Positions 36,579-60,849 of a DNA stretch of 64,000 nucleotides are shown here, piece by piece. The stretch spans positions 5,704,001 through 5,768,000 of the forward strand of contig JAYJMM010000113.1 in assembly GCA_037349105.1 (NCBI GenBank), written 5' to 3'. Both the position numbers and the translations under genes were made by a program. The notes under the pieces were generated by a model. The model did not search any database. It saw nothing but the letters and a program-made list of their open reading frames with translations, and was not told the origin of the DNA. This stretch comes from Limnomonas spitsbergensis (taxonomy: Eukaryota > Chlorophyta > Chlorophyceae > Chlamydomonadales). Each line of letters starts with the position of its first letter. Within the stretch, counting starts at the first letter, position 1.

Positions 36579-39500
36579 ATGGGCTCCACCGCACCTTTGC
36601 GTATCGACTTAATTAACGTCGCTGCCCCCGGAATCTCCTCCGAGGACGAGCATGGGTACTTCGATGACGGCTTTGAGACGAGGTTTGGTACCCCACCCGT
36701 AGCGACGTGGCAGCAGCCTCGATCCTACAAGCAAAATCAAGGTGAATGCATACAGCCAAGCGTTTTGAGGCGTCTAACTGAATCGCCCCCCCCCGCTCAC
36801 TCACCACGCCCGCTGAGGGCACCTAACCCCCTATATCCCGCCATGATCCCTGCTGCCACTGTCCATGTAAAATGCAGCGACCAGGGGAGAGGTGAACAAG
36901 AAGGTTAGGGGCCCGGCAACCAAGTTCAAGCAGGTGAGGTCGCCCTGCATGGCGGTGTTTATTTAGGGTGCATGAACTGCACTTTATTTACAACGAGCTG
37001 CACTTTGTTTACAACCAGGCCTACAGCCAGCAGGGCTGTTGGCCTGGTTGGATGCAACCAGCCCTGCGGCTTGGGCCTGGCCGGAAGCCTGTCAAGGTTT
37101 GGTCCTTATCCAACCAGTGGTGGCCGCCCAGCGGCACCCCTAAGTTAGTCTGGCGCACAAAAATGAATCACTGCTGCTTGGACATGCCTGGGTGACTGGC
37201 TGTGGCAAGCATTGCCGAGCTTGCATGGACTTCAAGATTGGGCTTACGCATGGACGCGATGAATAGGATTGCATGGACCTGCATGGCTACATTCTCCTGC
37301 ATTGTCACAATCATGATCAATGCACGATGCCAGAGATTTCCCCTGTCGCTCCAACGCTGGAACCTGGAACCTGGAACGCTCGGTGATGATGCCCCGCCAT
37401 ATTCCCTATAGGTTTGTCCCTCACATGAGTTTCAGCATGTGCGCGTCCATGAAGGCATAGCGAAACGCATCATATACCTCCCTCTTGTTACCTGCAGGCG
37501 AGCATGCAGCAGATCGGCCGCTCCTCCAAAGCGTTGACCCTTGGGAGGAAGGAGAGCAAGGACAAGCGGCAGAAAGAGAGGCATGAAGCACGGGCGTTCA
37601 AGGTGAGACTGGATGACAAGTTGGGTTTCTTTGTATTCTTCTGTACTTTCTTCTGGTGTTATTTAAAAGTGCATTAAGCTTAATGTGCATGAAGCTGACC
37701 CTGCCCGCTGGTAATCATATGCCACGCTTTTCCTTACTTACCTTCCTCATGCGCTGCCCTGCACTCTGCGTGTCCCTCTCCGCTGTGTCCAGGAAGTAGA
37801 CTCTGTGATGGAGGCCCTGGGCGTTCCCGTGAACGCACCTTTCGTTCCCGGAGGTGGTGGCTCGGATGAGCCTTCTGGGCTGAGCTCCCACGAAGTCTCG
37901 TCAGCCTCTCTGGACCAGCGCCTGCTGGCCAGCCCCAGCAACATGAGCCTCGCCTCCTCCAGCGACGGCCGACAGACGCCGCCACATCCGCAGCACGCAC
38001 ATCACAAACAGGTGACAATCCAGTCAGCGACTGCATGCATGTGCATGGCAGCATGTCCAGCAAGCAGGTGCATGCATGCATGGCTGCGCTGGGCCCCTAT
38101 GTGACTGATCTATGCTGTTGCTGCGGCAGCCACGCTGCGCTTCAGACTTCCAGTGATTCCATACCACCCAGGGCGTAGCCGTACCGGCCTGTTGTTTCCC
38201 ACGTTTGTGTTTTGTCTGCCGCTTTTTGAACTGCAGATTAAGAGCGCCAGCAACCTCAACTTGGGCTCAGTGTCGGCGGCTTCGTCGAGTGACGGGCGCC
38301 CACCCATTCCTTGGACGCCTCCGGGCTGCGGAGGAGACTGGAGACAGCAGCATCAGCAACTGCAGCAGCAACAGCTACAGCAGCAACAACAGCAGCAACA
38401 ACGGCCAACGCAACAGCAGCAACAGCTACAGCAGCAACACCGGCCAACGCAACAGCAGCAACAGCAGCAACACCGGCCAATGCAACAGCAGCAACAGCGA
38501 CACCAGCTTATACAACCGCAATTGCAGCAGCAGGTCGACAAGAAGCTGCATGCACAAACGTGAGTCATGAAAGCTTTTGCTGTTTGCGACAGGTCGAAGA
38601 TGGCCTGTCTGCCTTGCCATATCGTTCCGGGTAACTTTAATTTGTACCTCACTTTGGTGCTGAAGCGCTGCAGATGCTGAGGAAAGATTACGTGTAACAT
38701 TTTATTTTTCTCTGAATACCTGTATACCGTACCGGTATGCTTCATTGGCAGGCTGAAGCTTCTCTTCTCCACCTGGTGGTGAATATTCCTTACTACCTTA
38801 CCAGATTCACGGGTGCCCTTCTTTGCTAGGTTGGACACACAAAGTTTATCATATTTGATTGGTTAGGTGTGGTGTGTCTGCTGGGAGTCAAAATGAGCCT
38901 GTATGTGTCCACCCTCGCTTGGCCCTGCTTCTGAACCCTCAAAACGTAGCCTGAGCTGCCCATCAGTCACTTGATTAGTAGAGAGAAGCACATTCCCGGT
39001 ACCCGCAACTTGGCTTGAACCTTAAACCCTGCCAGGGCCCATGCGACTGATGCATATCACCTCCTGCTCCATGATATCAGCCTTTCCTCAACGTGTCTTA
39101 CCGCCTTCCCGTAACTCATTTTCTTACTTCATTGAAATTCGATTTTTGAACAGGAAGGCACCATTAGCCAGGAGCTGGGCAGCTGTAGCCTGTGCGCCCC
39201 CAACCCGAGGCCCACCCTCAGGCGCTGGTCAGGGCCGCAGCACCACCTCCACAGCACCTATATCTCAAAGAGGCGCGCCCACCCCTCCCCCACCCCCATC
39301 CGTGCACCACCACAGCCACAGCTGCAGCCAGATGAAGCGCCCGGCTGCACCACCCGAGGTGTCCGCTGTTCTGTCTGAGCGGCGGGCCGAGCCACCGGCC
39401 TGCTTGTCTCCGTCCTCAGTTGCGCGGCCGCTGGCAGCCAAGGCTGCTGTTCCCAGCGCCACTGACGCCTCTTGCTACTCCGCCGCTGACCCCTCTGGCT

Positions 39501-42500
39501 CCGCCTTTCCCCCGCATGCTGCTGCTGCTGCTGTGTCGGGCGCGGGCGGCGCATCAGGTCGGGAGCGGAAGCAGGGCGTCGTGCGCAGGCAGTCCAGTGA
39601 TGACCCTGGCAGCCTCCGTGCCCCGCCATCAGAGGACGATCCGAAAACTGTGGAGCGGGATCGGCTGGTAGCTGAACGGTACGCACTGTGCCTTAGATAA
39701 GAGATGACTGTGCTGGGAGAGCTAGGGCGTCCTTTCCTTTATTTCTTTCTTTTGTTACTGGGCGGAGAGCTAGGCCTCCCTTGCACAAGGTGCTCTCATC
39801 CTTCAACTGCATTGCCCCCCACGTTTGCTTCCTTTGTTCCCGCCCCCCAGTGCTTGTTGGATGATGTAGGTGTGACAGTCTGGCCTTCGTCTCCCCTTTC
39901 TTACCACCCATGCTGCGTCTGTTCCCTCTCCACAGTGCTTGTTGGGAAGGGGGGAACACATGCTTCAAAGTCCGGCCTCCACCCTTGCTGACTCTGTTCC
40001 CCATCTTAACGATTTGGAGGAGGGAAACATGTGTCACGTTCCAAACTTGATCTTACCTCCTGACGGCAAGTAAATTGTGATGTGGCACATATGTGATGTG
40101 CAGTATCCCCTCCCCCCTGCAGCGCCTCGTGGCAGCGCCGTATGTGTGAATGTGGCACATGTGTGATGTGTAGTGATGTGCAGTATCCCCTCCCCCCTGC
40201 AGCGCCTCGTGGCAGCGCCGTATGTGTGATGTGGCACATGTTTGATGTGTAGTGATGTGCAGTATCCCCTCCCCCCTGCAGCGCCTCGTGGCAGCGCCGT
40301 ATGTGTGATGTGGCACATGTGTGATGTGTAGTGATGTGCAGTATCCCCTCCCCCCTGCAGCGCCTCGTGGCAGCGCCGTATGTGTGATGTGGCACATGTG
40401 TGATGTGTAGTGATGTGCAGTATCCCCTCCCCCCTGCAGCGCCTCGTGGCAGCGCCGTATGTGTGATGTGGCACATGTGTGATGTGTAGTGATGTGCAGT
40501 ATCCCCTCCCCCCTGCAGCGCCTCGTGGCAGCGCCGTATGTGTGATGTGGCACATGTGTGATGTGTAGTGATGTGCAGTATCCCCTCCCCCCTGCAGCGC
40601 CTCGTGGCAGCGCCGTATGTGTGACGTCCTTGACGGCCGCCTGACCCTGGATGACATTGAGGGCGTGGTGGGGGACTGTGTGAGCAAGGCCGAGGACATC
40701 AAGCAGCAGCTGATCGTGCTTGAGACGCCGCTCTCAGGCTGGAAGGAGATTGACGACCGGCTGGACATGATGGCGGAGTGTGTGAGACAGGTGCGCTGGC
40801 AAACTCTTCGACACATTCTCCCTTGCTCCTGCTCCTGACTCCTGAATGTGTATGAAGGCCAGGCTGGCGCTATTGGACAAGTGTGCTGGCATACTTTTCG
40901 ACATATCATTCCTCCCGTCTGTTGATAAATCCTGAAGGCCATGTGCGGAGGCCAGGTTGACGCTCTTTGACCTCAATCCCCAGAGAAAACCGCTGTCGGG
41001 ATGACATTCTGATGTATTTTGTGTTGCCATCGCCCCCTACCCCTGAACCCGATGCACGAAGGCTAGGCTGGTGCTGCGGGATCTAGAGCCCCACAAGCGG
41101 CTCCTGATGCAGTCAGCTAGGGACGCAGCCGCAGAGCAGGAGGAGCATGCGCCAGCGCCACCCGGCCCTGCCCCGGCGGCCAACGGTGTTGGGCAGCAGC
41201 AGCAGCAGGATAGGATGCAGCAGGACATGTTCTTGGACTGCAAACAGAGGCTCACCGGTGCCGTGTACGAGCGCGTCCGCATGGTCATGCTGCCCGAGAT
41301 GGTCACGGCTGTGCAGGTGGGCACTTTCACAATAGCAGGCAGGCTCATACAGGCAAGCATGCAGGGGACCACGTACAGGCATGCAGGGGACCACGTACAG
41401 GCATGCAGGGGACCACGTACAGGCATGCAGGGGGCCACGTACAGGCATGCAGGGGGCCACGTACAGGCATGCAGGGGACCACGTACAGGCATGCAGGGGG
41501 CCACGTACAGGCATGCAGGGGGCCACGTACAGGCATGCAGGGGACCACGTACAGGCATGCAGGGGGCCACGTACAGGCATGCAGGGGGCCACGTACAGGC
41601 ATGCAGGGGGCCACGTACAGGCATGCAGGGGGCCACGTACAGGCATGCAGGGGACCACGTACAGGCATGCAGGGGGCCACGTACAAGCATGCAGGGGACC
41701 ACGTACAGGCATGCAGGGGGCCACGTACAGGCATGCAGGGGGCCACGTACAAGCATGCAGGGGACCACGTACAGGCATGCAGGGGGCCACGTACAGGCAT
41801 GCAGGGGGCCACGTACAGGCATGCAGGGGGCCACGTACAAGCATGCAGGGGACCACGTACAAGCATGCAGGGGACCACGTACAGGCATGCAGGGGACCAC
41901 GTACAGGCATGCAGGGGGCCACGTACAGGCATGCAGGGGACCACGTACAGGCATGCAGGGGGCCACGTACAAGCATGCAGGGGGCCACGTACAGGCATGC
42001 AGGGGGCCACGTACAGGCATGCAGGGGACCACGTACAGGCATGCAGGGGGCCACGTACAGGCATGCAGGGGGCCACGTACAGGCATGCAGGGGGCCACGT
42101 ACAGGCATGCAGGGGGCCACGTACAGGCATGCAGGGGGCCACGTACAGGCATGCAGGGGGCCACGTACAGGCATGCAGGGGGCCACGTACAGGCATGCAG
42201 GGGGCCACGTACAGGCATGCAGGGGGCCACGTACAGGCATGCAGGGGGCCACGTACAGGCATGCAGGGGGCCACGTACAGGCATGCAGGGGACCACGTAC
42301 AGGCATGCAGGGGGCCACGTACAGGCATGCAGGGGGCCACGTACAGGCATGCAGGGGGCCACGTACAGGCATGCAGGGGGCCACGTACAAGCATGCAGGG
42401 GACCACGTACAGGCATGCAGGGGGCCACGTACAGGCATGCAGGGGGCCACGTACAGGCATGCAGGGGGCCACGTACAAGCATGCAGGGGACCACGTACAA

Positions 42501-45500
42501 GCATGCAGGGGACCACGTACAGGCATGCAGGGGACCACGTACAGGCATGCAGGGGGCCACGTACAGGCATGCAGAAGACCACGTACAGGCATGCAGGGGG
42601 CCACGTACAGGCATGCAGGGGGCCACGTACAGGCATGCAGGGGACCACGTACAGGCATGCAGGGGGCCACGTACAGGCATGCAGGGGGCCACGTACAGGC
42701 ATGCAGGGGGCCACGTACAGGCATGCAGGGGACCACGTACAGGCATGCAGGGGGCCACGTACAGGCATGCAGGGGGCCACGTACAGGCATGCAGGGGGCC
42801 ACGTACAGGCATGCAGGGGGCCACGTACAGGCATGCAGGGGGCCACGTACAGGCATGCAGGGGACCACGTACAGGCATGCAGGGGGCCACGTACAGGCAT
42901 GCAGGGGACCACGTACAGGCATGCAGGGGGCCATGTACAGGCATGCAGGGGGCCACGTACAGGCATGCAGGGGGCCACGTACAGGCATGCAGGGGGCCAC
43001 GTACAGGCATGCAGGGGGCCACGTACAGGCATGCAGGGGGCCACGTACAGGCATGCAGGGGGCCACGTACAGGCATGCAGGGGGCCACGTACAGGCATGC
43101 AGGGGACCACGTACAGGCATGCAGGGGGCCACGTACAGGCATGCAGGGGACCACGTACAGGCATGCAGGGGACCACGTACAGGCATGCAGGGGACCACGT
43201 ACAGGCATGCAGGGGACCACGTACAGGCATGCAGGGGACCACGTACAGGCATGCAGGGGACCACGTACAGGCATGCAGGGGACCACGTACAAGCATGCAG
43301 GGGACCACGTACAGGCATGCAGGGGACCACGTACAGGCATGCAGGGGACCACGTACAGGCATGCAGGGGGCCACGTACAGGCATGCAGGGGGCCACGTAC
43401 AGGCATGCAGGGGGCCACGTACAGGCATGCAGGGGGCCACGTACAGGCATGCAGGGGACCACGTACAGGCATGCAGGGGGCCACGTACAGGCATGCAGGG
43501 GACCACGTACAGGCATGCAGGGGGCCACGTACAGGCATGCAGGGGGCCACGTACAAGCATGCAGGGGACCACGTACAGGCATGCAGGGGGCCACGTACAG
43601 GCATGCAGGGGGCCACGTACAGGCATGCAGGGGGCCACGTACAAGCATGCAGGGGACCACGTACAAGCATGCAGGGGACCACGTACAGGCATGCAGGGGA
43701 CCACGTACAGGCATGCAGGGGGCCACGTACAGGCATGCAGGGGACCACGTACAGGCATGCAGGGGGCCACGTACAGGCATGCAGGGGGCCACGTACAGGC
43801 ATGCAGGGGGCCACGTACAGGCATGCAGGGGGCCACGTACAGGCATGCAGGGGACCACGTACAGGCATGCAGGGGGCCACGTACAGGCATGCAGGGGGCC
43901 ACGTACAGGCATGCAGGGGACCACGTACAGGCATGCAGGGGGCCACGTACAGGCATGCAGGGGGCCACGTACAGGCATGCAGGGGGCCACGTACAGGCAT
44001 GCAGGGGGCCACGTACAGGCATGCAGGGGGACCACGTACAGGCATGCAGGGGGCCACGTACAGGCATGCAGGGGACCACGTACAGGCATGCAGGGGGCCA
44101 CGTACAGGCATGCAGGGGGCCACGTACAAGGCATGCAGGGGGACCACGTACAGGCATGCAGGGGGCCACGTACAGGCATGCAGGGGGCCACGTACAGGCA
44201 TGCAGGGGGCCACGTACAGGCATGCAGGGGGACCACGTACAGGCATGCAGGGGGACCACGTACAGGCATGCAGGGGGACCACGTACAGGCATGCAGGGGG
44301 CCACGTACAGGCATGCAGGGGGACCACGTACAGGCATGCAGGGGGACCACGTACAGGCATGCAGGGGGCCACGTACAGGCATGCAGGGGGCCACGTACAG
44401 GCATGCAGGGGGACCACGTACAGGCATGCAGGGGACCACGTACAGGCATGCAGGGGGCCACGTACAGGCATGCAGGGGGCCACGTACAGGCATGCAGGGG
44501 GCCACGTACAGGCATGCAGGGGGACCACGTACAGGCATGCAGGGGGCCACGTACAGGCATGCAGGGGGCCACGTACAGGCATGCAGGGGGACCACGTACA
44601 GGCATGCAGGGGGACCACGTACAGGCATGCAGGGGGACCACGTACAGGCATGCAGGGGACCACGTACAGGCATGCAGGGGGCCACGTACAGGCATGCAGG
44701 GGACCACGTACAGGCATGCAGGGGGCCACGTACAGGCATGCAGGGGGCCACGTACAGGCATGCAGGGGGCCACGTACAGGCATGCAGGGGACCACGTACA
44801 GGCATGCAGGGGGCCACGTACAGGCATGCAGGGGGCCACGTACAGGCATGCAGGGGGCCACGTACAGGCATGCAGGGGACCACGTACAGGCATGCAGGGG
44901 GCCACGTACAGGCATGCAGGGGGCCACGTACAGGCATGCAGGGGACCACGTACAGGCATGCAGGGGACCACGTACAGGCATGCAGGGGGCCACGTACAGG
45001 CATGCAGGGGGCCACGTACAGGCATGCAGGGGGCCACGTACAGGCATGCAGGGGACCACGTACAGGCATGCAGGGGACCACGTACAGGCATGCAGGGGAC
45101 CACGTACAGGCATGCAGGGGGCCACGTACAGGCATGCAGGGGACCACGTACAGGCATGCAGGGGACCACGTACAGGCATGCAGGGGACCACGTACAGGCA
45201 TGCAGGGGGCCACGTACAGGCATGCAGGGGACCACGTACAGGCATGCAGGGGACCACGTACAGGCATGCAGGGGACCACGTACAGGCATGCAGGGGACCA
45301 CTTACAGGCATGCAGGGGACCACGTACAGGCATGCAGGGGACCACGTACAGGCATGCAGGGGACCACGTACAGGCATGCAGGGGGCCACGTACAGGCATG
45401 CAGGGGACCACGTACAGGCATGCAGGGGGCCACGTACAGGCATGCAGGGGACCACGTACAGGCATGCAGGGGACCACGTACAGGCATGCAGGGGACCACG

Positions 45501-48500
45501 TACAGGCATGCAGGGGACCACGTACAGGCATGCAGGGGACCACGTACAGGCATGCAGGGGACCACGTACAGGCATGCAGGGGACCACGTACAGGCATGCA
45601 AGGGGACCACGTACAGGCATGCAGGGGACCACGTACAGGCATGCAGGGGACCACGTACAGGCATGCAGGGGACCACGTACAGGCATGCAGGGGGCCACGT
45701 ACAGGCATGCAGGGGACCACGTACAGGCATGCAGGGGACCATGTACAGGCATGCAGGGGACCACGTACAGGCATGCAGGGGACCACGTACAGGCATGCAG
45801 GGGGCCACGTACAGGCATGCAGGGGACCACGTACAGGCATGCAGGGGACCACGTACAGGCATGCAGGGGACCACGTACAGGCATGCAGGGGGCCACGTAC
45901 AGGCATGCAGGGGACCACGTACAGGCATGCAGGGGACCACGTACAGGCATGCAGGGGACCACGTACAGGCATGCAGGGGACCACGTACAGGCATGCAGGG
46001 GACCACGTACAGGCATGCAGGGGACCACGTACAGGCATGCAGGGGACCACGTACAGGCATGCAGGGGACCACGTTCAGGCATGCAGGGGACCACGTACAG
46101 GCATGCAGGGGACCACGTACAGGCATGCAGGGGACCACGTACAGGCATGCAGGGGACCACGTACAGGCATGCAGGGGACCACGTACAGGCATGCAGGGGG
46201 CCACGTACAGGCATGCAGGGGACCACGTACAGGCATGCAGGGGACCACGTACAGGCATGCAGGGGACCACGTACAGGCATGCAGGGGACCACGTACAGGC
46301 ATGCAGGGGACCACGTACAGGCATGCAGGGGACCACGTACAGGCATGCAGGGGACCACGTACAGGCATGCAGGGGACCACGTATGGTACAGAAATTCACA
46401 CCCGAAGACAGCTGCAATTGGCATCCTTTTGACCTGCCTTGCCGGCACACCCTGGCCCTTCGATCCTTCATCCGCAATTGTGATCCTTTACACTTGCCCC
46501 TGTTTGTGCTCCCAGATGTTCTCGTCGTCGGTATGCGAAACGTGGCATCACATGCAATCCGAGGAGGATGTGCGGCTTGGCGCCAGCGTGGCTAACAAGC
46601 TGCTCAAGGCGGTGCGCGCCATGGTCAGAGACCTACTCAAGTGGGTCATTAAGTCGGGGGTACAGGGTGCAACGGGGTTAGGTGTCAAAGTCCTTCATGC
46701 CTACACCTGCTTAAGGCGGTGCGGGCCATGATCAGAGACCTGATCAAGTAGGTGATGCGCTTGCTGAGAGACAGTTTAGCTGTACGCAACGGCTGATAGG
46801 GGCATGCCTTTTAGCTGGATGCAATCTTTGGCATGGAGCCCCGTACTGTACGGCAACCAGGATGTTATTTTCCGCACATCGGGTACACTATACCCTCTGC
46901 AGTACACTGTACCGCATATAAGGTACAATGTGCTGAACCGCATGTCAGGTACATCATTACCGTTCCGCACTGCTGCTAAAGTGTTCAGTACTGCAGGGTT
47001 ACCAGGCTATTCAGTACTGCACGACAGCTACACTGAAAATGTAACATGGCAGCTGCAATGCACTGTGTAGCAGCAGTGACATTCTGTACCACACGGCTGT
47101 TATCGTGTACTGTAGATTTGCTTTGCCTTCCCTCATAATTATGGTTGTCTGGGGGATCCATAAATGTACTTCTTATTGATTTTCCTAATGTCCACGCCAG
47201 CTTCTGTCAGAATTTAAGAGTTTTGGTTGATAATTTGCCCTGAGGGCAGCTTAAAAGGAAAACGTTTTTTCCTACCCGAGGGATGGAAAATCAAATCCAC
47301 GGTATGCCCCTGCCTCCATTTCAAGCTTGCTCTCTGCTGAAGGGATCCCAGCTTCAGATGCAGAGGCCGCCATCGAGCTGCTGTACAGAATACCGCAAGT
47401 AGCTGCGCTGTACCCCCTCAACCACTTAAGCTAGATGCAGGGTTACCAGCTGGATGTCAGCGGGCGCTGACTCCGCCGCCTAGCTGTACGTTTTGGCATC
47501 CGCTTTTTACTCTTAACCGCTGTCCACACTTGTACTGTCGAAGGGATCCCAGCGACGCGGCCGCCGCCGCTGAGCTGGCCTCGTTTGACAAGCGCCTGGG
47601 CCTCTACTCGGCCTCGGTCGCGTCTGCGGTGTCCGAGGCCTCGGCTCTGCTCGCCGGACAGCTGCTCGACGTTGACAGCCTGCGCCCGGGCGCCTTCGTG
47701 CACGAGACCAGCGCTAAGTCCAAGGCGTTGACCGCGTCGTGGCGCGCAGCGTCGGAGCTGGCTGGGCGCGTCGGGCGCCATTGGGGCGCCACTCGCCTAG
47801 GTCTGCAGCGCGGTCTGATGGAGAGCGTGCTACACGCAGCAGAGTGCGCATTGGAGATGCACGACGCCTGGCTGCCAGGTGTGTGGGTCCCACAAGTATA
47901 AGGCAGGGTTGGGGTTAGGGGTTGAGGGTTAAGGGTTTCCCCCTTCAAATTCCCTTAGTCAGTCAGCACCGAGTGTGACGTCATTGCAAGTCCTTACAAT
48001 TTATGGCATTTGATTTGAATGCTGCCTTTGAATACCCAGACTTATTTGAGGGTTGATGCCTGCCTTCCTGGTTCATATTTCCAGTCCGGAATGCCACTTT
48101 TCCTCCAGAGCTCCTCGTGTTGGTTCGGCCTTGCCATCCCAAAATATTTCCAGTCTGGGATGACACTTCTTATTCAGAGCTCTTCCTGTTGGTCCGGCTT
48201 TGCCATCCCAAAATACACCCCAGGGCGGATGCGAGGCTGCCGTAACAACGACAGCGTCACCTGCATCGGTGTTGATTGTAGGGTGCTCCAGCTGATATCT
48301 TGCTATGATCTGGCCTTCTGCCAACAGGACTAGGTGCAGCATGTTCTGTTGCTGGGGCCACATGCTGTAGCCTGGTCAAAGTTTTAGTTGGTCCCCATGA
48401 GCCCAGTGTTGGCCACTCTAGCCCTCTCCCCCCCCCCCGGTAAAGTGGTATGGCGTGCTCTAAATTAATGACTGGTCCAGCTGAGTAAAGCGGACACAAT

Positions 48501-51500
48501 GGTGAGAGGACCATCATTCCAATGAATGGTGGCCGTGACCATAGCTTTTGATAGAATGACAGGCTCCCTGAATGTGTGAAACATCTAGGTTCATGTCCTA
48601 TTAAGGCTGGTGGAGATGTTTTGCCCTAAGCTCCCTGACCCTGAACCCCCCAATGACCCAGCTGAGTCCCTCACCCTGACCCCCCTCACCCTGATCCCCC
48701 CACTGACCCAGCTGAGAGCGACGAGGAGCTAGACGACTTCACGGGTGGCACCAGCTCTGGCATGACGGGCGCGTGGGGCTCATCACCAGCTGCAGCAGGG
48801 GCGCAGCAGCAGCAGCAGCAGCTGGGCCAGATGGAGCCGCTGAGGAGGGCAGGTGGCTGCCGGACCACTGGGTATTCTGGCGCATTGACCGATGAGGATG
48901 TGCAGGTGACCTCTGTTTCTGAGGATAAAGGTTTAGACAGTGTAGGGCTTAGGTCTTCTGTGTTTGGCTGTGTTTGACGAGCTTGGGTGGATGGGCTAGA
49001 GTTGGCTTGACGAGCTTGGGTGGACAGGCGAAGGTTGACTGATTAGCACACGAGCTTGAATGGACGGGCTAGGATTGACAGGCTTGGTTGGACTGGTTAC
49101 CACGCAGGCTTGGTTGGACTGGTTACCACGCAGGCTTGGTTGGACTGGTTACCTTGCTTTGATGGGCTAGGGTATGCAGGCTTGGTTGGACTGGTTACCT
49201 CATTATGGCTTTTCCCACCAGCTTGTACTCACATGACCCGTCCTGGGTGCAAGCTTGCCAGCGTTTATTTGTTTAGCTACGATGCCTCTTTGGGCGGGCA
49301 GCCAAATGGCTGGACTGGGGCCAATTGGCCAAGCCCTTTCACCTAACAGTCTAGCCCAGTTAGCAGAGCATGGCCAGCAGAGTATGGCCAGCTCCAGTTT
49401 GGGTCCCTAGCTGGAGGCCAAAATTCAGCTGGGATGTTGCTGAAATTGGGCCAAGCCACAATCCTTGGGTGCCTGGCCTTCTGCTGGCATGGTCTGGCAC
49501 TGTGGCTCTTAGATACATAAATACGCCCTAGGGCGTGGATTCAGGATGGACCATGGCTCTGACAACACAAGCTATCCGCGTATCCCACCATGTGTGTTTG
49601 CAAACCAAGACGTGCATGCAGACCCATGCGGCCATGCAGACCCAGGCATGCATGACTGTATGGAGGAGAATGCGTGTCTTCCAGGCCTGCTGCTGCGGTC
49701 GACTGGTTTTTCACTGTCTACTCACTTACCCACCCCGCTATGCATGCAGGCCCATGCCTGGGTGCCTGGCTTGCTGCTGACTCTGATCGACCGGGCCCAG
49801 GTCCAGCACCGCAACATGCGCGAGGAGTTGAGCCAGGAGCTGCTCACCTCCTTTATGGACGATGCAGAGGAGGATGCGCTGTACGGATTGCTGGACAAAC
49901 TGCAGGTGAGCAGGGTTTAGTTTTGTGAGTCTCGGCTACAGCTCAGCTACCTTCATGGATGATGTTATTGATGTGGAGGAGGAGATGCTGTATGAGCTGC
50001 TGGACAGACAGCTGGTGAGCGATGTTTAGTTTTGCAAGTATCAGCTACAGTTCAGCTACATCCTTCATGGATGATGTATTTATGTTATTGATATGGAGGA
50101 GGAGACGCTGTATGAGCTGCTGGACAGACTGCAGGTAAGCTGTGATTGATTTTGCAAGGATCTCTTACAGTTCAGCTACAGTCCAGCTTCAATATAGCTA
50201 TAGTTCAGCTACAGTTCAGCAACATGCTTCATGGATGATATGAAGAAGGGAACGCTGCATGGGCTGCTGGAATTCTTTTACTTCAGTGGCTTGGCTACAG
50301 TTCAGCCACAGTTCAGGTGCAGGGCTTACAGCGTTGCTTTATCAGGCCACGAGTCTACCTCGCCATTTAAAACTAAAAAAAGTATTATAAAACAAGCGTT
50401 TTACATTCAGCGGGCAGCCCCGCGCCCCAGTTACACTATCTCCAGTCCATGAAATTTCTAGGTCCATGGCACGCTGTGAAAGAATGCAGCTTGCATCCCA
50501 TTTTCCCTTTCGCTGTTTTTCAACTCCTTTAGTCTCTGAGCTATTTTCAGTCCTGGACCCTCACAGCCGCTCCTGCCCCCTGCCCCCTGTCCCCTGCCCC
50601 CTGTCTCATTCCCTGCCCCCTTTGACCCCCCTGCACCCCAGGCCATCTTCAGTCCTGGACCCTCACCCCCCCCCCTGTCCCGTTCCCTTATCCCTCGGGC
50701 CCCCTCTGACCCCCTTGATCCCCAGGCCATCTTCAGCCGCCTGGCCATCGCCAACACCCGTCGCACCGCCCTGCTGTGCGGCCGGCCACAGCCCCTGTCC
50801 TACTATGCCCTGGAGATCCTGCGGGACCAGGCGGAGCAGGCGCTGCGCCTGATTCAGAAGTACGACAGCAGTACTCTAGGCTTGGCAGACCTACTGGTGG
50901 AGGAGGTGGGAGGATTAGGACAGAGAGACTTACCCTCCAGTATCAGTCTAGTCAGATCTGCCTAGAGATCACTGAGCACCTCTGCTATATCAGCGCAGCA
51001 CTGTTTGTCAAGTACTGTAAGCACGGTAAGGTTAGCCCAGTAATGTTAGCCCGGTGTGCCTGCACGGACTGTAGGATAACGTATGGTACGGGGGTCATGG
51101 GTGGGTGGGAATGGTACGGTGATGACAGCTTAACCCAGTGTGCCAGGTATGCTGTATAATGCGCAGCACTGCGAGGGGCCTGAGGATAACTAAGAAAAAA
51201 CATACGGGTTGTCTTTGCACTTACCATTGCTTTCGCTCTTCAAGGATGCAGCCGTGCCAGAATGTAGTTTTGAATTCGAATTGTTGCTTGGTTTGACTGC
51301 ACCGGTTCTGGTTTGCAATTTGTATTTGTCTTGCAGGAGAATATCGACGGTGACACCGCACGGCTGTTCTACTCTCTCAAATATTCAACCGATCGCGTTG
51401 CCAACGGCCTGCTCCGGGTGAGAGATTCTAGTCTGCCCTGAGTGACAAGCGCAAGCCCTTCATTGAGATATAAATCTACATCATACACCTTTGTATGGAT

Positions 51501-54500
51501 GCTGTGGTTGACATGGCTCACTGGCATGCCGCTGAACCCTGGCTGAGAGCTGAGCATTCTGTGTCACACCTTGACCCCTGGATCCTATACCCTGATCCCT
51601 TTATATTGTATCCCAGCAATATACCTGGGATTTCTGGGATACAATATAGAGGGATCAGGGTACCGTATAGGATTCAAGGGTATATCCTATACCCCAGATC
51701 CAAAATTTGACCCCACCCAAATACTGCGCACAACCCCCTTACAGCCCTCCAGGCATATCGATAAAGCAATTTCAGTATTGTAGACCATTCCGCCTATCCC
51801 CGATATTCACCATACGATGTGTCAAACCCTGTCTTGGAAACATAGTACGCTGCCATCCCCACTTGCAGGTGAGACGTCTGCTGAAGCTGCGGCGTGCAGA
51901 TGAGGACGCTCACACCCAGGCACTGCCCAGAGTGCGCTTTCCCTCCTCTCACAAACCGCAACAGCAGCCGCAGCGACCAGGCCAGACGCAACAAAAGCAA
52001 CAGCTGCATCAGCAACAACAACAACAGCTGCAACAGCAACAAGGGCATCTGCCGCAGCCACAGCCGCAGCCACTCCAGCTGCAGCAGTCATGGGGAGCAG
52101 CAGCAGCAGGGGCAGCATCAACCTCAGCAGTTGCAGCACCAACAGCATCAGGACCATCGTCTTCTGCAGCTGCAGCAGTAGCACGAGCTGCACCTTCTGG
52201 AGGAGCGGCAGCGGCCCCCGCGCCCACGCACAGGGATGGGCCTGAAGCAGGTGCTGGCAGCAGAGCTCTGGGGGCTGCAGCTGCAGCAGGCGCGCCCTCC
52301 TGCGGACCAGGGCAAGCATCAACTGCTGCTGGGAGGCACGCACCTGCCCAGGCTGCAGAGAAGCGAGCGGGCCCCTCAGACCAGACCCATGCAGGTGGTA
52401 GAGAGGCAGTTTGTGCCTCTGCTGCTCCAGCTGCTGGCTCCAAGGCAAAACCCTCCAGCAGCGGCGGCAGCCCCAGCCTTGTATCAAGCATGGATGCAGC
52501 TGAAGGCAAAGCTGCTGGCTGGAGAGCAGCAGGACCTAGAGCCGCTCCTGCACCCTCGCATACCAATGGAGCCGGGGGCGCAGGGAGCTGCTGGGCGGGC
52601 CCGTCTGCGGAACTGGGCTATGCACCTGACGCTGCGGGGGCGCCCAGCCCTGCAACCCACTCCCAGCCAAGCAAGGTAGCCGGCAGCAGCACCTGGCCAG
52701 CCTCGTGGAACGCAGCGGGCGTGGCAGCCAACGCAGGCGTCGCGGCCGGCGCTGACAGTGTGGCATCCAACGCCGGCGAGTCGGGGTGCAGCTCGCTGCA
52801 GAGCTCGGCAGGCGCTGCGACCTTCGCGGACGTGCTGAAAAGGCTTTGGCCTGCTCCTGCAATGTCGATTGCTGCTGTCGCAACACCTTCCCCGGCAGCG
52901 GTGGCGGCTGCGAGCAGGAGCGTTGCAAACTCTGCGTTGCCCAAAGGTGGCATCAGCCGAGACCTCGCTGCCCTTTCGTCGCCTTGCGTGGCCGCGGCCG
53001 TGGCGGCATCTGCAGGGCCGGCCCGGCCTGTCGTTCACAATGAGGCCTCTGCAACCGGCCTTGCGATTCCCACCGTGGCCGCGTCCCCTGCCACAAGCTC
53101 AGCTACAGATGCGGTGGGAGCACCTCGGACTGCCGTAGCTCGGGGTGCGATCCGGACCTCGGTATTTGAGGCAAACGTCGATGCTGTCCAGACTGCTGCG
53201 GTGGCCGCGGCCTCTCTCCAGCCACCGCCTGCAAAGTCCGCGTCGCCTTTCGCCGCGGCTTGGTTTGACAGTGGTGGAGATCCCTCCGTGGGTCCTCCTC
53301 CTCATGCCATCGCTCCTCCTGTTATGCCTCCTCCTCCCCAGCCTCCACCGTCGTCGACTTCAAAGCCGAGGCGGTCGCCTTTTGCGTCGGCAACCGACGA
53401 GGCTGCCACTACAGACGTGGCACAGGTGCACGCTGAGGGCGCTCAAGGACCAGTGGCTGCCGCGGCACACTACCCATTCAAGGTGTGTGTCTTTTTTGTG
53501 CACCACCGGGCCGGTAAGGACTTAACCTGCCGGCCTACAGCCGGTGGCCGAGACAGCAGGCACCTTACACCCTGGATGAGGCTCCCTTTCAGCAGGCCAT
53601 GAAATAGTTGGGCAGAAGCTGGAGCATCCCGACATAAGCTGTGATGTGCACTTCTCCTCAGCCTCCCGAGGAGCAGCAAAAGGAGCGGGACGGGAGGAGG
53701 GGAAATTGAGGTCACTGATGGTCCTTCCGTTCCCGAATCCTTTTGCAGCCATCAACTTGCGGCCATCAGCATGCGGCCCTGGATGGACAACCTTGTTGCC
53801 TTACAGATCTCCTTCCGCGCGTCTCATCCCACACCTCTTGCTCCACACCTCACCTTTCACATGCCTCACTCCACACCTCTTGCTCCACACTTCTAATTCC
53901 ACACCTCTTGCTCCTCCCCTCTCCTTTCGCAGTTTTCAGGCCCAGGCCCCACAGCCTGGTCCCCGCTGGCTGGAGACGCGACGCCGGTTCTCTTCGGGGG
54001 CACCTCCCCCGCCCATTCCCCGGAGACAGCTCTTGCTGGCAAGACCCGTCTCGGGCCCAGCCCCGCACCCCTGACCCCCCTGGATACGGCAACCCACCGC
54101 CCCTACCACCTGCAAATACCGGGAACCGCAATCGGCCCTGGCTCATCATCAGGGGCAGGCTCAGGGGAGGGATCAGGAGCAGCGGGGGCTGCTACGGAGG
54201 CAACAGCGGCAGTGGGTATGGCCTGGGCCGGCAGCCCACCTGCGGCCCCTGCGCGTGGCCCGGCTGCGGCCGCTCACGGATGGCAGGGTACTGGGCAGGC
54301 CCTGGCAGCCGCCTCGCCGCAGCAGGCTACGCCAAGGGGGCGCTCGCCTTCGGCTTCGGCTTCGGGGTCGGGGTTTTCGGTGGGCTACGATGGTTTCTGG
54401 AAAATCCGATGGCATGAGCTCAAGAGTGAGCTGCTGGAGCTGATCGGGAGCGGCAGCTTTGGACAGGTGGGTGTGCCTGTGTTGGTGTGTGTGTGGGGGG

Positions 54501-57500
54501 GGGGCAGAGAGTTGTTTGGAGAGGCGGTGTGCCACTGAGTGTTTAGTTGGGCCACTACTGGTTGCTATGCTGTTTGGTGTGCGCAATGCACTTATAAAGT
54601 AACGTTAAGCTCAGACGAAGCGGAAAACTTTTCCAACTGAAGGTCTTTCACGAGCTTAGCTCCTTTACACCCCATATAGGGGTTTAGGGTTACGATCGAG
54701 TATTTCCACTCTTGTAGCCCCCCAAATCCTTCAGGTTTGTGCATTACTATGCTCTAACCTTGCTCTTTTGGCAGGCTGATGGGCGGCCACCGCTAGGCTG
54801 ATGTGGACCAAACCTGGATTTTCATATGGGCGGTGGACCAAGCAGCAGTGCATTCTGCACCAGGCCGCCGCCGCGGCCATGGACTGTGATGTAGCTGAAA
54901 TGTGACGACGCAATCGGTGCCTCTTGGGTGAACAGCTGAACGCGTTGGCTGCAAGGAAACAGCCGAAAAGGGCTGGTCTGAACAGGGAACCTTTCTTTCC
55001 CCCTTCAAACAAATTGGCAAGCCTCTGTTTTGTTGCATTTCTAAATTTCCAAACAACAGGTTTGGCATGCCATGTACCACCACGAGGAGGTGGCTGTCTA
55101 CCCCTTCAAACATATATCTCGACAAGTTTCCAGTTTTTTTCATCCCTCCGTTTTCAAACATCAGGTGTGGCATGCCATGTACCACCACGAGGAGGTGGCT
55201 GTCAAGGTCATCACCATCGATCGGCAACTGGAACATGACGGCGATGCAGTGGACAGGTTCAGGTGAATCGTGATTCATAGTTATAGGGGATGAGGGCCCC
55301 TAAAAAGCTTATGGGAGACCCCCACATTTGTTATATGGCCTTGTCGCTCCAATTTGATTGGTTCACACTTCCCACTTGGCCTTCTGGTCATATTTTAGGC
55401 TGTCCTGTCTGTTGCCTCCTGGTCGTTGGTTGTGCTGCGTGTGCTTGTACAGTTTTTCTCTGTGTCTGTGCTCCTTTGCTTTGCCATGTGCCTCCTTGTT
55501 GCGGGTTTTAGGTTTTATTCTAGTTATTGTCTCTGGCTCTCCCCGTGTGTTCCGCCTGGCCCTTTCGAAAAAGGCTGTCGGTAACTGCGTTAACTTCATA
55601 ACAATAACAAGGCTGACGGGAACCAACCCTGAAACCTGGAAATTCACCATGATGCCGTGGATGCCATGATGCCGTGGATGCCAGGTTCAGGTGAAAACAA
55701 AACCGTCACTTCATCGACTTGTTTGATTCCTGGATCATTGCAATGCCTCCTTAATTAATTACACAATAATAATTACCGGTACTTGATGACTTAATTACAT
55801 TAGCAACATTTGGAGCGTAAAGTGATATGAACTCAAGTTACTTGTATACTCTCAATCCGGGATGCCAATAATAATCACAGGTTTTTCAGAATTCTCGTGT
55901 TTTTCAAAATCACAGGTTATCCAGAATCCACGTGTTTTGAGGCCCCAGCGGGTGCCTGGGATGTCTGTCCACAGGCAGCAGATACAAGACGGATGGATTG
56001 GACTATGGGAGGCGCCTAACCTTGGCTGCTCTGTGCTCTGTCCTGAAGGGGGGGTGAGGGGCCATGTTTTCCCTTTTTCATTTTTTTCTTTTGGAAACAA
56101 TGGTGAAGGATTGGTCCTCGCTCCTCTCCCCCTCCCTCCCTCAGCCCCCTCCTCCCTCTCCCGTTTCCTAGTCATCTCCCCCCTTAGCCCCTCCCTCCCC
56201 GGCTCCCCCCCTCCCTTTGTAGGCAGGAGGTGGACATCCAGCGCCGTCTGTCCCACACCAACATCGTGCAGATCCGCGGAGCATGCTGCGAGTACCTCCC
56301 CGACACCTCCTTTGCTACCTTGCCCACCTCATCCTCCGGGGTCAGCAACAACGGGCCATTAAAAGAATCCGACAGCAGCGAGAGCTTCCAGGTGTGACAA
56401 ACGCTTAGGCTTCAGGTTAGGGTTAAGAGTGGAGTTTCAAGTTGAACCAGAACCCTAAACCCTGCCTCCAGCAGCCCCCTGGGTCTGCGCCCATGATGGC
56501 GATAGTCACGGGTACGGGAACACATGTACTCACCTTCCAGGAGAAACAGACGGAGTTTCAAGTTGAACCTGAACCCTCAACCTTGCTTCCCCCCCCAGCA
56601 ACCCCCTGGGACTGCGCCCATGATGGCGATAGTCATGGAGTTCTGCCGGCTGGGCAACCTGTTTAGGATGATCAAGCTGGCCAGGGACCTGAGGGCCAAA
56701 ATGGAGACGCCAGGCTTTGTGCCAGACCCACGCATCTTCCGTACGCCCTACTACCGCTTCTACAACAGCTGGGAGAGGAGGCTGGAGGTGTGTGTGCTTC
56801 TGTGTGGGGGGGTATGAACGTATGATACATCCGGTGTGCATTGTGGCGCACAGCCTGTGAGGGCTTGAGGGGACCCGATATTCAGCACTGCTGCGTAGGC
56901 CTCCGCAGGCCAGTCACAGTTTGAGCCCCATCGCCCAGTAGTGGGTGCCCAGTGGCCCGCCGACGATGGTCAGAGCTTCCCAAGCACTTGGCCAAGAGGG
57001 ATCCACACCACGAGGGAAGTTGTTTTTGTAACTACCGTAAACAAACTTGAAAGGTGGATGATCAGTAGCAGGGGACCACCTCCCAGTGCAGCGTTTCAAT
57101 CTGTCTGGGTGAGCTTTCATGAGCCCTTTGAGAGGCGCTCAGCTCTTTGTCCTGGATGCCTCACTCTGCTGCTTAACTATGCCCTTATTTTGTTGAAGCG
57201 CACTTCAGCCACAATTCAGCTACCTGACAGCCTATGGCCGCGGTGGCTGGGTGCAGTATGCCCTGCTGCCTGGGCCACTGACTGAAGGCTGCAGTGTTTT
57301 TTGTAGTGGGTGAGGGACCACCTTTGCTGGACCGCCCCGCGGCCACCCCTGGGCCGAATCACACCAAACCTGGACCGGCCTCCGGCCGGTAGCCCAAGCA
57401 GCAGGGCTGGCCAAAGCAGGGGCTTGTGGCCTGGGGCCACTGTGTAGCTGAACTGTAGCTGATAGTAGTAAACCACTCACTAAGAAACTGAGGTAGGCCG

Positions 57501-60500
57501 GTCCAGGTTTTGGTCCCCATCGGCACAAGGTGTGACCTGCTGATGGTAGATGAAACCTGCTGATGGTAGATGAAACCTGCGGATGGTAGATGAAACCTGC
57601 TGATGGTAGATGAAACCTGCTGATGGTAGATGAAACCTGCGGATGGTAGATGAAACCTGCTGATGGTAGATGAAACCTGCGGATGGTAGATGAAACCTGC
57701 TGATGGTAGATGAAACCTGCTGATGGTAGATGAAACCTGCTGATGGTAGATGAAACCTGCGGATGGTAGATGAAACCTGCTGATGGTAGATGAAACCTGC
57801 TGATGGTAGATGAAACCTGCTGATGGTAGATGAAACCTGCGGATGGTAGATGAAACCTGCTGATGGTAGATGAAACCTGCTGATGGTAGATGAAACCTGC
57901 GGATGGTAGATGAAACCTGCGGATGGTAGATGAAACCTGCTGATGGTAGATGAAACCTGCTGATGGTAGATGAAACCTGCTGATGGTAGATGAAACCTGC
58001 TGATGGTAGATGAAACCTGCTGATGGTAGATGAAACCTGCTGATGGTAGATGAAACCTGCTGATGGTAGATGAAACCTGCGGATGGTAGATGAAACCTGC
58101 TGATGGTAGATGAAACCTGCTGATGGTAGATGAAACCTGCTGATGGTAGATGAAACCTGCTGATGGCTCGCTGGCTATCCACCTGAAGGTGGCCGGTGGC
58201 ATCGCTTCATGAGGGCATGTCGGCACTAGGCTGGGCGGGTCGCCGTGTGTCACAGCTTGAAATAAATACCCTGAAATGAACACATCTGCGGGTTGCTGCA
58301 TACTGCTGATGGATGTCCCTTGCTGATGGTGGCTGGCTTCCCTCCTGTTGTTGGCTGATGGCATTGCTTCACCAGTTTGGGCCAGGTTGTGGCAGAGGAT
58401 TGTAGCTTGGAAAAAAAGGATTTAAAACAGCTACTGTTTGCTGCATGCTGCTAATGGCTGAACCTTGCTGCTGCTCGCTGGCTACCTTCCTGCAGGTGGC
58501 TTATGGCATTGCTGCTGGCCTGGAGTTCATGCACCACAATGACGTCGTGCACAGGGACCTGACCTCATACAACGTGCTGCTGGAGTTGGGGAAGGACCCT
58601 GGATCTTTTGTGGCCAAGGTACGTCCTGAAATAATGAAGTCTGGACTCTTATAGCGTACCGCTTGAATTGGGGGATAATGACCCAGGGGATCCTTCATGG
58701 CCAAGGTAGGCCGTCCGCCTAAAAATACTGAACCTAAAACTGGCCCTCCCTGCAAAGAGCTGCTTGAAAGGGGAGGGGCCGGTTTGGGGTTCAGTTTTCA
58801 TTGAATCTCCTGGGGATCTATAACCCGTTGTGATGAAGGTGGGTTGTTGTGGCGCCCGTCTGAATCTGGCGCAGATTATCTGCTTAAATATGAAATCGAA
58901 ATGGAATATCCCTCGGCCTGTATCCAGCTGGGGTGCGCATCTCTCTGTCTAGCCTCGGCCTCCCAGATCCGCCCAATCGCAAACTGGGTCCTGCCACCTT
59001 ACTGTTTGAATTCATATTCGAATGCCATTGTTGACTTGTTCAAATTAAAACGACACGTTTGGATTCGAGTTTGGACACGCGACCTACCGTTTTCGCAGGT
59101 GTGTGATTTCAACCTCAGCAAGATGGTGCCCCCGGAGCAGCTTCTGGCCAAGAGCCAGGGCATGGCCAACAGCCCCGCGTGGGCATCACCGGAGCTGCTG
59201 AATGGAGAGGACTACAGCTTCCCCCATGACACCTACACGTTCGGCATCATCCTCTGGGAGATCATGACACTGCAGGTACTGTTAATATTCTAGCCTGGCC
59301 TGATCCTTTAAACGCCTGGGACATGGCACCATCCTCTGGGAAGCATGACACCAAGATATGCGTGCCATGCAAGATATGCGTGCCATGCAAGATATGCGTG
59401 CCATGCAAGATATGCGTGCCATGCGAGATATGCGTGCCAAGCAAGATATGTGTGCCATGCAAGATATGTGTGCCATGCAAGATATGTGTGCCGCAAGATA
59501 TGCGTGCCATGCAAGATATGTGTGCCATGCAAGATATGTGTGCCATGCAAGATATGCGTGCCATGCAAGATATGCGTGCCTTGCAAGATATGTGTGCCAT
59601 GCAAGATATGCGTGCCATGCAAGATATGTGTGCCATGCAAGATATGTGTGCCATGCAAGATATGCGTGCCATGCAAGATATGCGTGCCATGCAAGATATG
59701 TGTGCCATGCAAGATACGCGTGTCATGCAAGATATGTGTGCCATGCAAGATACGTGTGCCATGCAAGATATGCGTGTCATGCAAGATATGTGTGCCATGC
59801 AAGATATGTGTGCCATGCAAGATATGCGTGTCATGCAAGATATGCGTGCCATGCTGATATGCGTGCCATGCAAGATATGCGTGTCATGCAAGATATGCGT
59901 GCCATGCTGATATGCGTGCCATGCTGATATGCGTGCCATGCAAGATATGCGTGCCATGCAAGATATGCGTGCCATGCAAGATATGTGTGCCATGCAAGAT
60001 ATGCGTGCCATGCAAGATATGCGTGCCATGCAAGATATGCGTGTTATGCAAGATATGTGTGCCATGCAAGATATGCGTGCCATGCAAGATATGTGTGCCA
60101 TGCAAGATATGCGTGCCATGCAAAATATGCGTGCCATGCAAGATATGCGTGCCATGCAAGATATGCGTGTCATGCAAGATATGTGTGCCATGCAAGATAT
60201 GTGTGCCATGCAAGATATGCGTGTCATGCAAGATATGCATGCCATGCAAGATATGCGTGCCATGCAAGATATGCGGGCCATACTGCCAAGTAGGCTATGT
60301 GAAGGTGATGTTGATGCCTGCAGGTCCCTGGGGGTCACATGCAAAGCCATGCCGGCCATGCTAGCCATGCCATGCGACCTTCAGCCATATATACTCTAAG
60401 ACCCGCCACTTAAACCTTACGCAGCCCTTCACCTATGCCATGCTGTTCTTGCTGGCCATGTGCTGTATTATATAGCCACCGCGACTGCTATTTGCTTTAA

Positions 60501-60849
60501 TGTATGCTAGCCCTTTTGCTGGCTTTTCATGCCGCATCAATACTTGCAAGATTTTGTATTGCAGGTCCCCTGGGGAAGCGGCGTCCAGGACGGGATGCGC
60601 GGCCGGAGCGAGGTGCGCCTCTTTGACGCGATCAACAAGGTGATCAGCGGGGACCGGCCGCCCCTGCCGGACCCGAATGAGCTGCAGCCACCTCTGCCCG
60701 AGGCGGCCCAGCTGATGGCGCTGATACAGCATTGCTGGGCGCAGGACCAGCGGGGGCGACCGGCAATGACAGCCGTGGCGGACCGGCTGAAGGAGATGCT
60801 GACGAGTGTCAAGCTACGCGCCAAGGCTGAGCGGCTCGCAGTACGTTGA
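36579..60849 (+). CDS. Giant TKL-type protein kinase with long regulatory N-terminus, 22 exons, 2,028 aa
   Basis: Exons: 36579-36741, 36890-36933, 37498-37602, 37793-38011, 38237-38559, 39154-39678, 40598-40790, 41062-41316, 46516-46640, 47544-47878, 48712-48905, 49750-49905, 50726-50905, 51337-51417, 51869-53482, 53933-54466, 55165-55262, 56223-56391, 56599-56787, 58496-58618, 59099-59275, 60565-60849; 6,087 nt, all phases consistent. Residues 1-460 are low complexity with a CAG-encoded poly-Gln tract (exon 5). Residues about 460-970 are helical and unrecognised (LTLDDIEGVVGDCVSKAEDI, SFDKRLGLYSASVASAVSEA). Residues 970-1660 are a Gln/Ala/Pro linker. The kinase domain (about 1660-2020) has IGSGSFGQ, VAVKVI (Lys 1696), HRDLTSYN (Asp 1855), DFNLSK in place of DFG, SPE at about 1905, and HCWAQDQRGRPAMTAV. 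Tyrosine-kinase-like (MAP3K/Raf-type) is the best class; substrate unknown. Could be two genes, but phase continuity argues for one. Confidence 0.8.
40080..40614. repeat. 79-bp tandem array copying a 3' splice site and exon start
   Basis: Seven copies of CCTGCAG|CGCCTCGTGG followed by CAGCGCCGTATGTGTGA begin (at AGCGCC) at 40121, 40201, 40280, 40359, 40438, 40517 and 40596, spaced 80 then 79 bp. The last is the true acceptor and start of the exon at 40598. After the shared TATGTGTGA the six intronic copies continue TGTGGCACATGTGTGATG, the true exon continues CGTCCTTGACGG. All six upstream copies keep an intact pyrimidine-CAG acceptor. Confidence 0.95.
40858..41085. repeat. Echoes of the 41062 acceptor
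   Basis: The true exon start GAAG|GCTAGGCTGGTGCTG has two upstream relatives: GAAG|GCCAGGCTGGCGCTATTG at 40858 and GGAG|GCCAGGTTGACGCTCTTT at 40951. The sequence after the first echo (TGTGCTGGCATACTTTTCGA) in turn resembles the donor side of the preceding intron (GTGCGCTGGCAAACTCTTCG at 40791), so the unit spans from exon edge to exon edge. Confidence 0.8.
41358..46383. repeat. 22-bp satellite, about 228 copies, in a kinase-gene intron
   Basis: Monomer AGGCATGCAGGGGACCACGT plus AC, 22 bp, with a two-state site (GGGGACC or GGGGGCC) and occasional ACAAGC for ACAGGC. GGCC forms dominate the first two thirds and GACC forms the last third. A 23-bp form with GGGGGACC is confined to about 44020-44640. 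The monomer has no stop in any frame on either strand, so very long ORFs appear in all frames; they are not genes. The array lies inside intron 41317-46515. Confidence 0.97.
46601..46755. repeat. Echo of the 46640 donor side
   Basis: Exon end TGCTCAAGGCGGTGCGCGCC (46601 on) recurs 107 bp downstream in the intron as TGCTTAAGGCGGTGCGGGCC (46708 on). Both continue with ATG-TCAGAGACCT and end at a potential donor: CTCAA|GTGGGT (true) and ATCAA|GTAGGT (echo). Confidence 0.85.
47335..47575. repeat. Echo of the 47544 acceptor
   Basis: True junction TCGAAG|GGATCCCAGCGACG and echo CTGAAG|GGATCCCAGCTTCAG at 47343, 201 bp upstream. Both continue with a similar GC-rich segment (GCGGCCGCCGCCGCTGAGCTG and GAGGCCGCCATCGAGCTG respectively). 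Confidence 0.75.
48650..48716. repeat. Echo of the 48712 acceptor
   Basis: AATGACCCAG|CTGAG at 48661 and CACTGACCCAG|CTGAG at 48711, 51 bp apart, embedded in repeated CTCACCCTGACCCCC. Confidence 0.7.
49849..50275. repeat. Four copies of an exon 3' end with donor (true donor at 49906)
   Basis: The exon end GCGCTGTACGGATTGCTGGA..CTGCAG|GTGAGC is followed in the intron by two full echoes ending in their own donors (CTG|GTGAGC at 50015; CTGCAG|GTAAGC at 50135) and a truncated fourth near 50222-50272. Spacing is about 110-120 bp and includes shared intron sequence (TTAGTTTTG, CTACAGTTCAGCTAC). Confidence 0.9.
50520..50745. repeat. Echoes of the 50726 acceptor
   Basis: The true start CCCCAG|GCCATCTTCAGCC has an identical CCCCAG|GCCATCTTCAG at 50641 and a looser copy (GCTATTTTCAGTCCTGGACC) near 50540, separated by CCCTGCCCCC-rich sequence. 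Confidence 0.8.
51582..51672. repeat. Long imperfect hairpin in a kinase-gene intron
   Basis: Left arm 51582-51616 and right arm 51634-51672 are complementary over about 34 bp (CTGATCCCT, TATTGTATCCCAG and their complements) with one 5-nt bulge and a 17-nt loop. Could be a tiny MITE or a tandem inversion. Confidence 0.75.
55000..55210. repeat. Echo of the 55165 acceptor and exon start
   Basis: True exon start CATCAG|GTGTGGCATGCCATG and echo CAACAG|GTTTGGCATGCCATG at 55060, 105 bp upstream. They share TACCACCACGAGGAGGTGGC before diverging (CTGTCAAGG against CTGTCTACC). The echo keeps the codons up to the invariant kinase Lys region but not the Lys. Confidence 0.92.
56425..56645. repeat. 127-bp duplication over the 56599 acceptor
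   Basis: GGAGTTTCAAGTTGAACC through an acceptor and GCGCCCATGATGGCGATAGT occurs twice, with exon-like starts at 56472 (echo) and 56599 (true). The echo diverges where the real exon reads CATGGAG. Confidence 0.92.
57305..57482 (+). mobile_element. GGCC-rich short element in a kinase-gene intron
   Basis: About 178 bp aligned along most of its length with 11475-11668 (GGACCACCTTTGCTGG, AAACCTGGACCGGCCTCC, GTAAACCACTCACTAA end). Fragments of related sequence lie just upstream (57205-57290). Non-coding. Confidence 0.6.
57536..58166. repeat. 20-bp minisatellite, about 31 copies
   Basis: Unit TGATGGTAGATGAAACCTGC with a two-state first base (T or G). It lies in intron 56788-58495. Downstream, CTCGCTGGCTATCCACCTGA (58166 on) and GTGGCTGGCTTCCCTCCTG (58329 on) are degenerate echoes of the true acceptor context CTCGCTGGCTACCTTCCTG at 58476-58494. 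Confidence 0.95.
59242..60285. repeat. Exon-end echo leading into an 18-bp satellite
   Basis: The exon end GGCATCATCCTCTGGGAGAT (59244 on, through ATGACACTGCAG) reappears at about 59323-59355 as GGCACCATCCTCTGGGAAGC followed by ATGACACCAAG. From there an 18-bp unit, ATGCAAGATATGCGTGCC, repeats to about 60282 with C/T and GCC/GTC variants. All of it is in intron 59276-60564. Confidence 0.88.

Follow-up and report, generated by a model that had tools for sequence, protein, structure and literature searches.

Decayed copies of exon edges and splice sites inside introns of the green alga Limnomonas spitsbergensis

In a giant protein kinase gene of Limnomonas spitsbergensis, imperfect copies of exon edges together with their splice sites (here called echoes) lie slightly inside the adjacent introns. 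This raises the question of whether a process acts on the splice junctions themselves or whether the junctions are only one of many places that are duplicated. The gene lies in a stretch of 64,000 nucleotides that was analyzed as a whole (the window), located on a contig of 6.35 Mb (JAYJMM010000113.1) in an assembly of 260 Mb in 124 contigs. A near-identical duplication of 36.9 kb was also seen in the region of the window. An initial annotation had listed echoes at 11 junctions, described them for this one gene, and proposed a recurrent process of tandem duplication spanning junctions.

We rebuilt the kinase gene model, which contains 15 exons (40598-59275). All 15 are phase-consistent, with a single frame open throughout. 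The last 307 residues of the model matched the protein kinase domain PF07714 (E = 4e-36). A metagenomic relative is 56% identical across 282 aligned residues, and the alignment has 4 gap positions and no echo-sized insert, which supports the exon joins of the model; this alignment is weak around the 56391/56599 join, and a 3-residue gap falls in that stretch. The large kinase exon itself contains a duplication. Our own gene finder was trained on paralogue-supported exons of six dynein heavy-chain genes plus the kinase gene, so it is not independent for the latter, while the held-out dynein genes described below are independent of it. Without hints, it recovered the splice sites of the kinase model with few exceptions: acceptor 47544 was chosen where the model has 47553 (both are in frame), the 1.6-kb exon was split, micro-exons were placed in an array of 79-bp units, and an additional upstream exon was called at 39322-39678.

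To score echoes, a query of 40 bases (25 exon and 15 intron) around each junction was compared with its own intron and with 72 control introns. At all 11 listed junctions the own-intron score was higher than that of every control intron, and the copies described in the initial annotation are real. When all junctions of the kinase gene were examined without selection, 15 of 30 passed, a frequency above chance, compared with a false-positive rate of 1 of 144 on mismatched introns. Four passing junctions were absent from the earlier list (donor 40790, acceptor 49750, donor 55262, and donor 58618). The features of the gene are as follows.

40093..40624, + strand: 79-bp unit repeated 6.7 times at 99% identity, running across acceptor 40598, with the acceptor and about 27 bp of exon edge in every unit
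40598..40790, + strand: exon 1 of the kinase gene model; its acceptor is echoed, and its donor echo passes only if intron bases are included
40854..40871, + strand: weak echo of acceptor 41062 with 14 exon bases
46600..46649, + strand: exon edge and donor 46640
46707..46756, + strand: echo of donor 46640, 86% identity, GT kept
47339..47352, + strand: echo of acceptor 47544, weak, 10 exon bases
48647..48666, + strand: echo of acceptor 48712, 15 intron and 5 exon bases
49613..49629, + strand: echo of acceptor 49750, absent from the earlier list
49861..50180, + strand: donor 49905; exon edge and donor occur two more times, with periods of 109 and 229
50540..50652, + strand: echo of acceptor 50726 that retains the AG and includes 11 exon bases
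54300..59275, + strand: protein kinase domain region (exons 54300-54466, 55165-55262, 56223-56391, 56599-56787, 58496-58618, and 59099-59275)
55000..55098, + strand: echo of acceptor 55165 that retains the AG and includes 39 exon bases
56431..56511, + strand: echo of acceptor 56599 that retains the AG and includes 40 exon bases
58279..58368, + strand: echo of acceptor 58496; the nearest copy has lost the AG
58688..58708, + strand: echo of donor 58618, absent from the earlier list
59333..59352, + strand: exon-edge echo of donor 59275, exon bases only

The share of exon sequence differed among these matches. At donor 59275 only exon bases matched, and the matches at acceptors 48712 and 47544 took in just 5 and 10 exon bases. 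A second test used 30 exon bases only and was applicable to 9 of the 11 listed junctions (all but 40598 and 59275). It was weak at 41062, 47553, and 48712, where 2, 3, and 21 of 40 mismatched controls, respectively, reached the score. Two of the additional junctions, donors 40790 and 55262, failed on exon bases alone (34 and 4 of 40 controls, respectively). At acceptor 40598, the echo formed by the 79-bp units is a minisatellite that takes in the exon edge.

Dynein heavy-chain genes were chosen for comparison because their paralogues allow exons to be marked regardless of echoes. Approximately 17 dynein heavy-chain loci were found in the genome by our own grouping of exon matches, which together with the GT-AG introns indicates a flagellated eukaryote; six were used as the main set and two were held out. 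In the main set, which is distributed over four other contigs, 38 of 144 junctions were echoed (donors and acceptors alike at 19 of 72, and between 3 and 9 echoes in each gene) versus 1 of 144 in the mismatched control. The two held-out genes had echoes at 5 of 28 junctions in a related test based on exon bases only. With the exon-only 30-base test, 40 of 172 junctions exceeded the 99th percentile of mismatched introns (8 of 28 in the kinase gene and 32 of 144 in the dynein genes). Predicted exons around the window, which are without homology support, gave 3 of 18, one being the listed donor 59275. Thus, echoes are not confined to one gene; they are present in nine genes on seven contigs. At about one in four of the splice junctions tested, the exon edge and splice site occur a second time, in decayed form, slightly inside the intron. 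The kinase gene, which was picked for study because it looked rich, had about twice the frequency of the dynein genes (15 of 30 vs. 38 of 144, Fisher P = 0.016).

It is very improbable that the echoes are an artefact of wrong exon models or assembly. The near-identical 36.9-kb duplication could be an assembly error, and our gene finder took some echoes for exons. However, the kinase exons keep phase and show homology across their joins, the copies differ by 3-32%, which assembly errors do not produce, and echoes recur on other contigs.

We then asked how junctions compare with the rest of the introns. One-sided copies were found for 20 of 172 exon edges and for 37 of 207 intron-interior windows of 30 bp; a larger set of 2,760 windows, which resamples the same introns, gave 17%. 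Copies of mid-exon sequence beyond 30 bp numbered at most 2 of 172, so exon edges exceed mid-exon but, in the pooled set, show no excess over mid-intron. Coverage by local duplicates in dynein introns was 0.23 adjoining the junction, 0.29-0.32 at 60-150 bp, and higher farther in. In dynein exons it was 0.20 in the first 10 bases, 11% at 20-30, 0.04 at 45-60, and 0.005 at 60-100. These window counts and the coverage profile imply that exons are protected and that, for the genes taken together, duplication is not concentrated at junctions.

Based on these data, we suggest that a general process of short tandem duplication operates in introns and that echoes are its margin toward the exon, tolerated where the extra copy falls in the intron, and we assign this reading a probability of roughly 0.8. 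Short tandem duplications would arise throughout the introns of this genome, perhaps initiated by microhomology or break repair. Where a unit spans a junction, the exon-side copy would remain the functional edge and the other copy would turn into intron, forming an echo. Selection would remove most units that take in more than about 50 bp of exon; echoes that include much exon sequence, or whose intron part is too short to hold a branch point, would compete with the true site. Older echoes would decay by drift, the intron part faster.

Alternatively, a process aimed at splice junctions, such as breaks at R-loops or splicing-linked structures, could copy them preferentially. The excess of echoes in the kinase gene over the dynein genes would agree with this, as would the fact that units seldom extend deep into exons. 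With overlapping arrays excluded, coverage in the kinase gene was 0.24-0.28 within 60 bp of a junction, about twice the 0.09-0.13 found beyond 150 bp; with arrays included, it was flat within 500 bp (25-33%). On the other hand, the slope in the dynein genes is opposite, interiors being covered more than junction flanks, and in the pooled windows the match rate of exon edges does not exceed that of interiors. The exon-side ends of the copies, the only ends compared, spread over 10 to 49 bases. A junction-aimed process is therefore unlikely. Tandem duplication spanning junctions, as proposed in the initial annotation, fits the echoes, but the tie to junctions does not fit exon edges at 20 of 172 against 17-18% of intron windows; the facts were right and were over-read as a junction process.

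The depth to which copies enter exons was compared with a neutral expectation in which the observed unit lengths were placed uniformly. Observed and expected counts were 20 and 27.9 at exon depth 0-30, 15 and 19.3 at 10-40, 11 and 15.1 at 20-50, 2 and 11.9 at 30-60, and 0 and 9.5 at 40-70; these windows overlap and are not independent, and binomial values serve as a guide only. The depth cut-off is based on 172 junctions and our own gene models. In 26 of 27 measured echoes the exon part made up less than half of the unit. Four further blocks lie close to exon ends, three of which extend about 57, 73, and 75 bp deep, and a sharp cap at 49 exon bases was softened for this reason. One of these blocks (C75b 12115-12174) is an echo that our pipeline called as an exon. 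The scarcity of echoes deeper than about 50 bp probably reflects selection, and a mechanical restriction on where duplications end may be an alternative.

The structure of the copies is informative about their origin. Unit length at junctions was mostly 60-150 bp. A minimum period of about 57 bp was withdrawn when an ungapped scan gave junction echoes with periods of 37 and 45; blastn discards hits near the main diagonal. In one dynein gene (L018 ~1569-1770), a 98-bp unit made up of the last 53 bp of an intron and the first 45 bp of the exon occurs twice with 100% identity, and the 6-bp microhomology ATCGTC is present at both ends. This junction (C86) was mis-modelled by our pipeline and stands outside the 33 gapped echoes considered below. 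The pristine duplicate looks like a newborn echo. Other echoes showed 68 to 97% identity between copies, and this range together with the 100% case fits a continuing process. In the printed alignments, exon parts appeared by eye better kept than intron parts, as expected with one exon copy constrained. A microhomology survey of 37 recent two-copy cases, several of them from the same arrays, gave a mixed picture, with an alignment excess of -7 to +86. Some echoes belong to arrays, implying that edge duplication may seed a minisatellite, as at 40598.

The same orientation of copies was built into the search. Copies were adjacent or overlapping in 18 of the 33 echoes, and a spacer of at least 10 bp separated them in 15. 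Of 11 spacers inspected, 4 matched the same intron and were read as decayed further units. The other 7 had no partner in the same intron, e.g., at C75b 8507, where the copies are 96% identical over 52 bp. Such unpartnered spacers are an outcome that plain tandem duplication does not predict. They could suggest that mobile or introner-like elements had entered at junctions and generated long target duplications. However, among the matches listed, no recurring element appeared when the 11 spacers were searched against seven loci, and spacer matches elsewhere were short or simple in composition; the adjacent or overlapping copies, one 98-bp case being perfect, also argue against inserted elements, which we regard as highly unlikely.

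Echoes add intron length and leave site-like decoys, as had been noted initially. The GT or AG was retained in 27 of the 33 gapped-echo junctions, close to the neutral expectation of 25.9 calculated from flanking identity, and purging of decoy sites was looked for among these 33 and not found. Median splice-site scores were 5.6 for kept echoes and 6.7 for their true partners, with -0.4 and 0.5 for background GT and AG in the same introns. Sixteen of 33 echoes lay above the 95th percentile of intronic GT/AG, compared with 131 of 172 true sites. Another measure counted the echoes exceeding the 5th percentile of true sites (25 of 33) and was dropped, since that cut is approximately the median of ordinary intronic GT/AG. 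Of the 27 echoes with kept sites, 24 would cause a frameshift or introduce a stop if used, and 3 would leave the frame open; distances showed no excess of multiples of 3 (8 of 27 echo sites).

The high retention of GT/AG and the strong scores could indicate functional alternative splice sites retained through use. This is quite unlikely, considering that retention is close to neutral and that few echoes lie at multiples of 3 or keep an open frame. Echoes look like neutral decoys and, as such, like a natural experiment in splice-site choice. Roughly half of the echoes have strong-looking sites and the majority would be harmful if used, yet they are drifting; either exon context silences them or surveillance clears their products. 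In 1986, Reed and Maniatis reportedly found that duplicated splice sites compete and that the amount of attached exon decides between them. Theirs were made constructs, whereas here there are many natural pairs with graded exon context. We tentatively propose, as somewhat less than an even chance, that about one junction in four genome-wide bears a duplicate splice site that often approaches the consensus, in most cases lies no more than about 150 bp away, would usually break the frame if used, and is neither purged nor kept, and that exon context with a threshold of about 50 bases lets the spliceosome ignore these duplicates. If true, the genome would provide a natural genome-wide assay of the exon length that a splice site requires.

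Several known systems resemble these echoes. Small tandem duplications from staggered-break repair are head-to-tail short copies, described as the commonest short (<100 bp) insertions in the human genome, and their cause was demonstrated experimentally with 3' overhangs (Nat Commun 2021, PMC8355091). Echoes are likewise head-to-tail copies of short stretches, adjacent or overlapping in 18 of 33 cases, and are not restricted to one kind of site. In contrast to the duplications described there, they are known from sequence outcome alone, their units are often >100 bp, and they are dense enough in introns to affect one in four of the junctions tested. Tandem genomic duplication of AGGT-containing segments, a route of intron gain, also places two splice-like sites side by side (PMC3443670). 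There, an intron is born inside an exon, whereas echoes extend the edge of an intron that is already present, and none is gained; the kinase echoes lie within introns of a continuous frame and not in a new intron in former exon. The introns of the two green algae Chlamydomonas and Volvox were reported to show the highest densities of tandem repeats, which are more numerous close to intron-exon junctions (PMC3887541). That study counts repeat motifs, and copies of exon edges or splice sites are not treated in the part of it considered here. Titles and abstract openings of open-licence papers, among the matches listed, contained no exon-edge copies in introns.

Echoes show one route of intron growth, local duplication. 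They also carry a warning that ab initio gene finders may call echoes exons, as in the 79-bp array. If the observed rate holds genome-wide, this alga would possess very many graded pairs in which a true splice site is matched with a decoy, the pairs differing in relative age, and RNA-seq alone could then measure how score, distance, and exon context decide splice choice.

Tandem arrays were found both within and beyond the kinase gene, and the sequence from about position 46240 recurs 36,878 bp downstream with 99.98% identity over 17,762 bp, a length bounded by the end of the query:

627-7144, large 28-bp minisatellite, 238 copies, beyond the kinase gene
16300-21540, large 68-bp minisatellite, 77 copies, beyond the kinase gene
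41357-46383, 22-bp minisatellite, 228 copies (5 kb), filling one kinase-gene intron
46240-64000, and on to 5818000 in coordinates of the contig carrying the window (G000:C113), near-identical duplication

The upstream limit of this duplication (about 46240) falls within the 22-bp minisatellite. Either a segment of the genome was duplicated very recently, or the repeat is an artefact of assembly.

In one dynein heavy-chain locus (L031), the start of the P-loop exon, which encodes PAGTGKTET, is present three times in succession at about 8700-8900 of the locus, with CCCTAAA/CCCTGAA-like strings lying between the copies.

Telomere-like strings, CCCTAAACCC and CCCTGAACCC, were also observed in dynein-gene and kinase-gene introns at a frequency far above that expected from composition. 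In the dynein regions both are biased toward the sense strand (43:3 and 24:9, respectively). Among occurrences in supported introns, 13 of 22 are located no more than 63 nt upstream of the acceptor, which would be the expected position of the branch point.
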